NCBI RefSeq assembly: GCF_001590685.1
Contig: NZ_CP014616.1
Location: forward strand, 1,301,001-1,365,000
Origin: Sporosarcina psychrophila
GTDB taxonomy: Bacteria > Bacillota > Bacilli > Bacillales_A > Planococcaceae
DNA: 64,000 nucleotides
Reading direction: 5' to 3'
Within the stretch, counting starts at the first letter, position 1; every line of letters begins with the position of its first letter. A program made the translations under genes and the position numbers. Below the pieces are notes generated by a model. That model had not been told where the DNA came from, ran no database searches, and worked only from the letters and a program-made list of their open reading frames with translations. Below are positions 11,863 through 42,670 of this stretch, piece by piece.

Positions 11863-12139
11863 AAAAAAAAGCCCTCCTCCCCTTACAAATAAATGTAAGG
11901 GGCGAAAAGCTGAAATACTCACGCGGTACCACCCTTTTTACTGTCTGAAAAAAATAGACAGTCTTGGTTAGCATGCTTAACGCGCATGTGACGGATAAAC
12001 CTACTAGACGTTTCAGTTTATCTATTCCAGAGTGCTACTTTACTGCGAAATCACTGATTTGCACCATCCATCAGCTCTCTTGAGATTTCAGTAGATAAAG
12101 TGTGTCTCCATCAAAATAGTTAGATTAGTTATGGAATTA
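11863..12139 (-). promoter_or_regulatory. T-box riboswitch, probably serine-specific
   Basis: On the minus strand the leader holds the Stem I signature AGAGAGCTGATGGATGGTGC (about 12081-12062). The antiterminator T-box core AGGGTGGTACCGCG lies at 11935-11922. A terminator follows in which CCCCTTAC pairs with GTAAGGGG, then GGAGGGC and eight T ending at 11863. A candidate specifier AGC (Ser) lies at 12036-12034 in GTAGCACT, three-prime of the Stem I apex. The amino acid is inferred from that codon and from the serA operon it controls; uncharged tRNA would permit readthrough. Confidence 0.9.
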
Positions 12140-27758: not shown

Positions 27759-28469
27759 CAAATGAATCATCATTTTCTTTGGATAATCAGTAAATAGGGC
27801 GGTGACACCAATTTTCCTCAGTGCTTCTGCATACTTTACTTCATTAACAGTGAAGACACGAACAGCCACTCCGGTTTCTACCACTTTTCTCATAGATGGA
27901 CGAGCAGCGTATGGTAATGAGATATGGAGTGCATCGGCAGGAATAGTACGCATATAATCGAGCGGATCGACTAGTACTTCCATGAACAAGGCTGCAGTTT
28001 CAATGTGCGGTGCAATTTTTTTTACTGCCCGAATAGCTTCGTGATCGAATGATGAAATAACGACACGCGCATCGAGTTTCATCTTCTGAACCATTGCAAC
28101 AACTTTCCCCACCATTCCCTCGTAAGGAAATATATCCGATTTTAGTTCGATATTTAGATGGTGAGAAGTCTCGGAAAAAATTTCGAGTACTTCATACAGC
28201 GTCGGTATAAGTTCACCCCGGAATTCATCAGAAAACCAACTGCCAAAATCAAATGACCTTAACTCCGCAAGTGTCATGTCTTTCACGAAACCTTTGCCAT
28301 CTGATGTTCTAGCTATTGTTTCATCATGAATGACAACCAGTTCACCGTCTTTTGTCAAATGAACATCGAATTCTACGCCGTAAATAGGAAGCCTGGCAGC
28401 TTCATGGAAGGCGGCAAGTGAATTTTCTGGATGTGTTCCGGACGAACCGCGATGTGCGTAAATATCCAT
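27744..28469 (-). CDS. Glycerophosphodiester phosphodiesterase
   Basis: 241 residues of the GDPD TIM-barrel family, which hydrolyses glycerophosphodiesters to sn-glycerol 3-phosphate and an alcohol. The N-terminus has AHRGSSGTHPENSLAAF, then EFDVHLTKDGELVVIHDE, carrying the metal-binding and catalytic His/Glu/Asp residues. No signal peptide, so cytoplasmic (UgpQ-like). The frame is open from 28520, but ATG 28469 directly starts the conserved block with GGATGGTGG upstream. A possible -10 TATAAT lies near 28527; alternatively it is read from the structured transcript starting at 28842. Confidence 0.9.
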   Translation of the reverse strand: MDIYAHRGSSGTHPENSLAAFHEAARLPIYGVEFDVHLTKDGELVVIHDETIARTSDGKGFVKDMTLAELRSFDFGSWFSDEFRGELIPTLYEVLEIFSETSHHLNIELKSDIFPYEGMVGKVVAMVQKMKLDARVVISSFDHEAIRAVKKIAPHIETAALFMEVLVDPLDYMRTIPADALHISLPYAARPSMRKVVETGVAVRVFTVNEVKYAEALRKIGVTALFTDYPKKMMIHLNRKS

Positions 28470-28554
28470 TATTGTGACCACCATCCTTTTCATGCTATTG
28501 TAATATGTGTATAACAGCAACGCAATTATAAACCCGATTAGTAAATGAAATTGG

Positions 28555-28842
28555 AAAAGGGATGTCCTCGATTGAGGAACATCCCTTTGTTTTGTCAGGT
28601 AACACTATACTTTTGAATTTAATTTTTCATCCCGATTATTCGGGGAATAATTTCCATAGAAAGGATAAGCTTTCAGAGCCGCGGTCATTGTTCCACTGGG
28701 TGCTTTCTAACTTAAGCAACATAAACCCTGCCTACTTTTATGTCCTTGCGACCCTTTAGTCGCGCCAGTGTGAATAAGTATTCTCAAAAACAGTACGTAG
28801 AATGCCAGATATTCAAATCTTAAGCATTACCTTATTGTTAAC
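28555..28842 (-). ncRNA. Candidate small RNA or long structured leader, about 290 nt
   Basis: A near-consensus promoter on the minus strand starts a transcript that meets a hairpin (GGGATGTTCCTC pairing with GAGGACATCCC, then TTTT) at 28588-28555. No credible ORF exists in between. Smaller helices are visible: GCGAC/GTCGC near 28760, ACATAAA/TTTATGT near 28740-28718 and CCCCGA/TCGGGG-like pairing near 28636. It is either an independent small RNA or an attenuated leader of the GDPD gene 86 bases downstream. I could not match it to 6S, tmRNA, RNase P, SRP or any riboswitch class I know. Confidence 0.5.
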
Positions 28843-28848
28843 GGAACT

Positions 28849-28877
28849 ATCATACCATGTAGCACAAGAAGTGTCAA
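28849..28877 (-). promoter_or_regulatory. Strong SigA promoter
   Basis: TTGACA (28877-28872), 17-base spacer, TATGAT (28854-28849), reading into the candidate RNA. Confidence 0.8.
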
Positions 28878-29509: not shown

Positions 29510-29740
29510 TTAAATTATTAAAATAACAGCCGCCTTTGCCGTATGGTCTTAGAAAGTTTTAAACCACCACTTCTCAAAGTGGGTGTTCGCAGAAACAATC
29601 CTGTATGCCCCAGTTATCGAAAGAACTGGGTATGCCATTCCTGTATCTAGGTAAAACTCCCGATTACAGCTTAAGGGTTAAAACTTAATATTTATACGCA
29701 CAACGCAGCTTGTAAATATAGTGTACATCATCGGCTTGAT
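29510..29740 (-). mobile_element. Possible end/guide-RNA region of an IS605/TnpB-type element
   Basis: Read on the minus strand, the block contains a perfect hairpin CCCAGTTCTTTCGATAACTGGG near 29626 (arms CCCAGTT/AACTGGG). It then runs GCATACAGGATTGTTTCTGC and ends with CCCACTTTGAGAAGTGGTGG near 29570. The terminal short hairpin preceded by ACACCC and followed by TTTAAA resembles right ends of IS605-family TnpB elements. A TnpB C-terminal fragment lies 200 bases away on the opposite strand, so these may be two rearranged remnants. Resemblance by eye only. Confidence 0.4.
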
Positions 29741-42507: not shown

Positions 42508-42670
42508 ATTCTTATCAAGAGAAGCTGAGGGATATGGCCCTGTGAAGCTTCAGCAACCTCTGACTTAGTCAGGAAGGTGCTACCTCCAACAAGATTTTTT
42601 CTTGAGAGATAAGAACAGAGTGCCCAAATTAAACCCTCTTGTCTTGTCTTATAGAAAAGAGGGTTTTTTA
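42508..42670 (+). promoter_or_regulatory. SAM-I (S-box) riboswitch with terminator
   Basis: Classical S-box: TTCTTATCAAGAGAAGCTGA, GGGAT, GGCCCTGTGAAGCTTCAGCA, ACC, AGGAAGGTGCTACCTCC and the closing GAGAGATAAGAA pairing with the first strand. A terminator (AACCCTCTT with AAGAGGGTT, then TTTT) follows at 42632-42670. SAM binding would stabilise the terminator and stop metA expression. Confidence 0.96.

Follow-up and report, generated by a model that had tools for sequence, protein, structure and literature searches.

The minus strand of the 64-kb Sporosarcina psychrophila window (the whole stretch of DNA analysed here) carries a unit composed of a promoter, a structured stretch of ~290 nt and a strong hairpin, and this unit is very probably a genuine RNA gene on that strand. 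The RNA probably acts in trans, and on balance we favour reading the unit as a stand-alone, trans-acting RNA gene that shares a factor-binding module with the leaders of cold-shock (csp) genes; its link to cold shock or translation is tentative. What appears to be new is the full-length, strand-corrected form of an RNA already catalogued as BsrC. In comparison with related loci, the unit has a predicted promoter of its own, a conserved fold that spans ~290 nt and a probable terminator; this genome has one strong copy of it, and its neighbours are not conserved. The same comparison identifies the core module as the reverse complement of Rfam BsrC and finds it across the class, in some genomes before or just behind csp genes.

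The −35 box TTGACA lies at 28877–28872 and the −10 box TATGAT at 28854–28849, with TG preceding the latter, and we infer the transcription start from the −10 box (Table 1). Seven promoter-like sites were found in the region compared with 6.0 in shuffles, so the match alone proves little; its conservation in relatives does. Within a 60-nt window, promoters matching at least 10 of 12 positions occur in 48 of 59 full-type loci, against 2/59 on the opposite strand and 2/59 in shuffled sequence. These full-type loci comprise 56 from the window's family, the window locus L001 included, and three from family f41. The 3′ hairpin, AAAGGG...CCCTTTTCC at 28588–28553, of which a simple scan picked up just the inner 5 pairs, is probably a terminator. 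Past its U-run, CCAAT or CTAAT is conserved in relatives (columns 438–444 of alignment A1), which is odd for a transcript end. Promoter and hairpin both lie on the minus strand where the original prediction placed them, and the structured RNA of ~290 nt that it proposed between ypsA and the GDPD gene is supported by the promoters and covarying fold of relatives.

Table 1. Features of the RNA unit in the S. psychrophila window
Feature	Position	Strand	Evidence
Sigma-A type promoter, TTGACA-17-TATGAT with TG extension	28849–28877	−	11/12 matches; 48/59 related loci with ≥10/12 at this distance
RNA unit, ~290 nt	28553–28842	−	32-row alignment; 51 pairs predicted by RNAalifold, 30 with two-sided changes
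Long-range closing helix P1, arms 28833–28826 and 28603–28597	28597–28833	−	Two-sided changes in 8/8 pairs
Conserved TGGCATTC element, 5′ of the module	28800–28807	−	TGGC[AG]T in 56/59 loci; GGCATTC in 43/59
Three-helix module (P0, P3, P4 with AGGNAGGG loop)	28705–28781	−	Reverse-complement overlap with the Rfam BsrC match
CCAGTGG, predicted partner of the module's CACTGG	28693–28699	−	Predicted fold
ACCGCGG, near-invariant, unpaired in the consensus fold	28679–28685	−	57/59 loci; CCGCGG in 59/59
3′ hairpin with UUUUCC tail, probable terminator	28553–28588	−	Two-sided changes in 8/13 pairs

The full-length fold was predicted from the full-type loci after leaving out the eight that are without the 3′ motif; the remaining 51 were reduced by similarity to 33, and 32 were aligned (L122 was dropped). 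From 5′ to 3′, the alignment reads TGGCATTC, the module, CCAGTGGAA, ACCGCGG, a small hairpin, the closing helix and the 3′ hairpin, and the closing helix P1 pairs columns 29–36 of alignment A1 with columns 306–313. The 76-nt core module shows two-sided changes in 16 of 20 pairs, and 93.4% of 1200 cells are paired in a 60-row subset. Its covariation score over these 60 rows (0.487) compares with 0.245 in shuffles, none of 500 reaching it, although related sequences can exceed shuffles and the module structure was itself derived from such sequences. The loop AGG.AGGG is invariant or nearly so. The predicted pairing of CCAGTGG with CACTGG crosses P0, which would make it a pseudoknot or an alternative pairing; because this helix (P2, CACTGG/CCAGTG) is near-invariant, covariation does not support it and it stands as predicted only.

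Coding by the unit is disfavoured. The longest ATG frames in 32 relatives span 0–34 aa on the RNA strand and 4–65 aa on the opposite strand, and 293 of 351 gap runs in the alignment are not multiples of three. No ATG frame of at least 20 codons over the module or ACCGCGG is kept in more than 13 of the 32 rows, and with GTG and TTG starts allowed such frames are kept in up to 20. The same limits (at most 13 and 20 of 32 rows) hold for the toxin frame looked for in view of the toxin-antitoxin label given to bsrC in PMC8208703.

BsrC-type modules are nearly order-wide. At E ≤ 0.001, RF01410 matches 193 of 200 family genomes, 250 of 261 order genomes and 210 of 398 class genomes, 209 of these 210 above the cut-off; 7 family and 11 order genomes gave no match. 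In the class, this amounts to about one in two of the genomes sampled. A model of our own, R1, built from 60 rows that include the window's, scores 82.7 bits at the window module. At E 1e-4 it matches 214 of the 398 genomes in the class, representing 80 of 145 genera, compared with 77 genera for RF01410 at E 1e-3. The four class genomes added by R1 are all weak (E 1.7e-5 to 7e-7), and the extra matches that were inspected are partial or in odd surroundings. The window's genome has one RF01410 match, whereas 3 of the 200 family genomes have two. Three further R1 matches in the window's genome (13–19 bits, E 0.003 to 2) are taken as chance, leaving one strong copy by both models.

Outside the full type, the module repeatedly accompanies cold-shock genes. 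At 37 of 250 loci a csp motif is found no more than 400 nt from the module on its strand (29 downstream, 8 upstream), and at no locus on the opposite strand; the sample is uneven because 120 of the loci were drawn by a pattern favouring Paenibacillus. A single genus-level group, g40, accounts for 15 of the 29 downstream cases, and one csp case (L066) was missed by the stricter csp pattern. All eight csp frames tested for family, five downstream and three upstream, are CSD proteins (PF00313). The 37 csp cases include no full-type locus, which leaves the cold-shock link dependent on how the module is placed in other lineages; that genes other than csp also follow the module likewise speaks against our preferred reading. 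At one locus (L050) the gene order is csp, module, DEAD-box helicase, and at another (L090) csp motif, module, CarD-like gene. In B. subtilis, Rfam bsrC lies between cspC and ydeB (PMC8208703), suppressor mutations have been described in the cspC 5′ UTR (PMC8307031), and bsrC has an RPKM ratio of 53.6 in a table of Hfq co-precipitation (PMC3574147).

We know of no function for this RNA, and the csp linkage offers a first handle on one. In the mechanism we propose, the housekeeping polymerase would make the RNA, which would act in trans. The module may be the docking site of a conserved cellular factor, for which a cold-shock protein, an RNA helicase or the ribosome are candidates, and this factor would also act on the leaders of csp mRNAs. 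The free RNA would then titrate or direct it.

Several other readings of the module have to be weighed. The module could be a 5′ mRNA stabiliser or a ribosome-standby element whose purine loop is Shine-Dalgarno-like. It precedes csp genes by 92–199 nt in five measured leaders, its loop is close to invariant, and divergent copies stand before ribosome binding sites, one of them directly behind a hammerhead ribozyme; however, the window's own loop, AGGCAGGG, is a weak Shine-Dalgarno match, and no clear frame follows that the stand-alone form could serve; we consider this reading unlikely. The divergent copies (in L278, L279 and L281) precede frames whose surroundings are phage-like. In L278 (1431–1497 and 1501–1575) such a copy comes immediately after a match to a type II hammerhead ribozyme, and a 231-base piece of L279 gave two partial phage matches, one of 80% identity covering half of the query and one of 74% covering 40%.

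ACCGCGG suggests a second reading, in which the free RNA would use this element to base-pair with 16S rRNA at the 530 loop and would tune the activity of the 30S subunit. The element is present in nearly every full-type locus (57/59), and in 31 of 32 rows 8–12 nt at this place match the genome's own 16S, around AGCAGCCGCGGTAATAC, as a perfect complement; we take the complementary 16S stretch to be the 530 loop. Complementarity as such is common, with 7.7 complementary 8-mers per row compared with 4.9 per shuffled row, so the ACCGCGG match is a lead only. Moreover, outside the full type ACCGCGG was found in just 4 of 71 and 1 of 120 other loci. We regard pairing with the 530 loop as improbable, and we give the same low weight to the wider proposal of a near-order-wide RNA that anneals to the decoding-centre 530 loop via ACCGCGG while its module elsewhere stands before or behind cold-shock genes. 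If true, an RNA annealing to the 530 loop would be an RNA arm of the cold response that acts on the ribosome. ACCGCGG presumably also resembles a T-box element, and the T-box family (RF00230) was considered for it; there is no match at the unit, and the window's only T-box leader lies at 11895–12123 (−). The window also holds a SAM riboswitch at 42509–42615 (+).

Slightly less likely still is a third reading, with the module as the aptamer of a riboswitch that has escaped recognition. Its compact three-helix fold with conserved joints, standing before genes in some loci, is consistent with this, but the stand-alone form prevails in the window's family and no riboswitch family reaches its gathering score at the locus. 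The genes behind the module also share no evident pathway and include CarD-like, hemolysin III-like, small membrane-protein and phage-like frames. By motif, a CarD-like gene lies behind the module in L260; further module copies, in L274, L275 and L276, are followed by frames that, as named from sequence, encode small membrane proteins and a hemolysin III-like protein.

The strand on which the RNA lies bears directly on its identity in the databases. A scan with Rfam 15 placed RF01410 BsrC at 28706–28793 on the plus strand (88 nt, 62.9 bits against a cut-off of 38), and no other Rfam family reached its gathering score at the locus. RefA9, mir-2816 and DGCR5 gave weak matches there, all below their own cut-offs. 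The original prediction had called the RNA unidentified and had named a match to a known family as what would overturn that. The match is above the cut-off but on the opposite strand: the ~290-nt unit is not catalogued at full length, whereas 88 nt of it overlap Rfam BsrC, antisense to the Rfam orientation. Folding energy does not decide the strand, since both fold better than shuffles and the plus strand even more so (for 291 nt, −78.8 kcal/mol and z −3.34 on minus; z −4.57 on plus).

Other comparisons point to the minus strand. In a set of 110 core sequences dereplicated from 250 loci (20 pairs, hence 2200 cells), standard pairs fill 2095 cells on the minus-type strand, 1721 on the other and 711–1045 in slid controls, and the minus-type strand has 396 G-U cells against 22 A-C cells. 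With 130 loci turned to put the BsrC match in antisense, the strongest promoter in the 150 nt upstream scores at least 10/12 at 66 loci, compared with 8 on the other strand. Terminator-like hairpins with a T tail lie downstream at 46 versus 18 of the 130; the scan behind these counts is crude and does not pick up the hairpin of the window unit itself. The G-U to A-C asymmetry, together with the 48 versus 2 promoters among full-type loci, places the RNA on the minus strand, and Rfam appears to have modelled the reverse complement of the actual RNA; judged by these cells and promoters, the RNA does not lie on the strand as modelled in RF01410. It is very unlikely that the Rfam orientation is right, with the functional RNA on the plus strand or both strands transcribed: the plus-strand BsrC score and the stronger plus-strand fold speak for it, and the pair asymmetry, the promoters, the downstream hairpins and the restriction of the csp motif to the minus-type strand speak against it.

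In Paenibacillus riograndensis, RNA-seq is reported to show a 322-nt transcript annotated as BsrC and read from the minus strand (688067–687745; PMC5670726). Among the matches listed, at least 14 single-contig genomes of family f3, which we infer to be Paenibacillaceae, have the module. Eleven of these 14 carry it on the minus strand at 0.50–0.59 Mb (G262, G331, G344, G394, G404, G423, G433, G482, G497, G545 and G553), G458 and G608 on the minus strand elsewhere, and G616 on the plus strand at 0.17 Mb. With f3 taken as Paenibacillaceae, the strand of the reported transcript fits our module and not the Rfam model, as far as position and strand alone can tell. Because the library entry seems to be the reverse complement, annotation pipelines would put this RNA on the wrong strand. 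A literature search in which subscription journals were thinly covered returned no description of a BsrC strand error, a csp-linked module or the 290-nt unit.

YpsA (PF06908) lies upstream and GDPD (PF03009) downstream, both on the unit's strand, and a Peptidase_C26/GATase gene lies beyond GDPD on the plus strand. Between a small RNA and a leader of the GDPD gene, the two options left by the original prediction, we favour the small RNA because promoter and hairpin stay with the unit in loci whose neighbouring genes differ. A 5′ leader of GDPD, whether riboswitch or attenuator, is the least probable reading and is rejected on synteny: GDPD does begin on the same strand 83–86 nt past the hairpin (ATG at 28469, the distance varying with the hairpin end chosen), in line with the 86 bases first noted, and three relatives besides the window retain the ypsA-unit-GDPD order, but this is the arrangement in just 4 of 130 loci. 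With a neighbour crudely defined as the longest frame within 1.4 kb, the downstream neighbours of the 59 full-type loci fall into 25 clusters and the upstream ones into 29, and at least 26 of the 59 have their longest downstream frame on the other strand. We found no evidence of the proposed switch for glycerophosphodiester use.

The small RNA that we favour can be set beside three known systems. The csp leaders of Bacillales, such as the B. subtilis cspC 5′ UTR with its RNA feature S179 (PMC8307031), are comparable in that the module precedes csp in other lineages; they differ from the window unit, which has no csp gene nearby and no match to the cspA thermoregulator RF01766 at its locus. RF01766 matches lie near the module in 2 of 14 scanned loci. 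A 6S RNA (RF00013, 69.4 bits) lies immediately upstream of ypsA at 29523–29714 (−), which gives ypsA a stand-alone RNA on either side, both on the same strand; the 6S RNA is a separate locus, and RF00013 has no match at the unit. BsrC, reportedly first named in Saito 2009 according to citing papers, is the third. Its 87-nt RF01410 model matches our module, yet on the opposite strand and over less than one third of the unit, and its structure line is one hairpin, without the P0, P4, 5′ and 3′ elements and probable terminator that the full-length fold adds.
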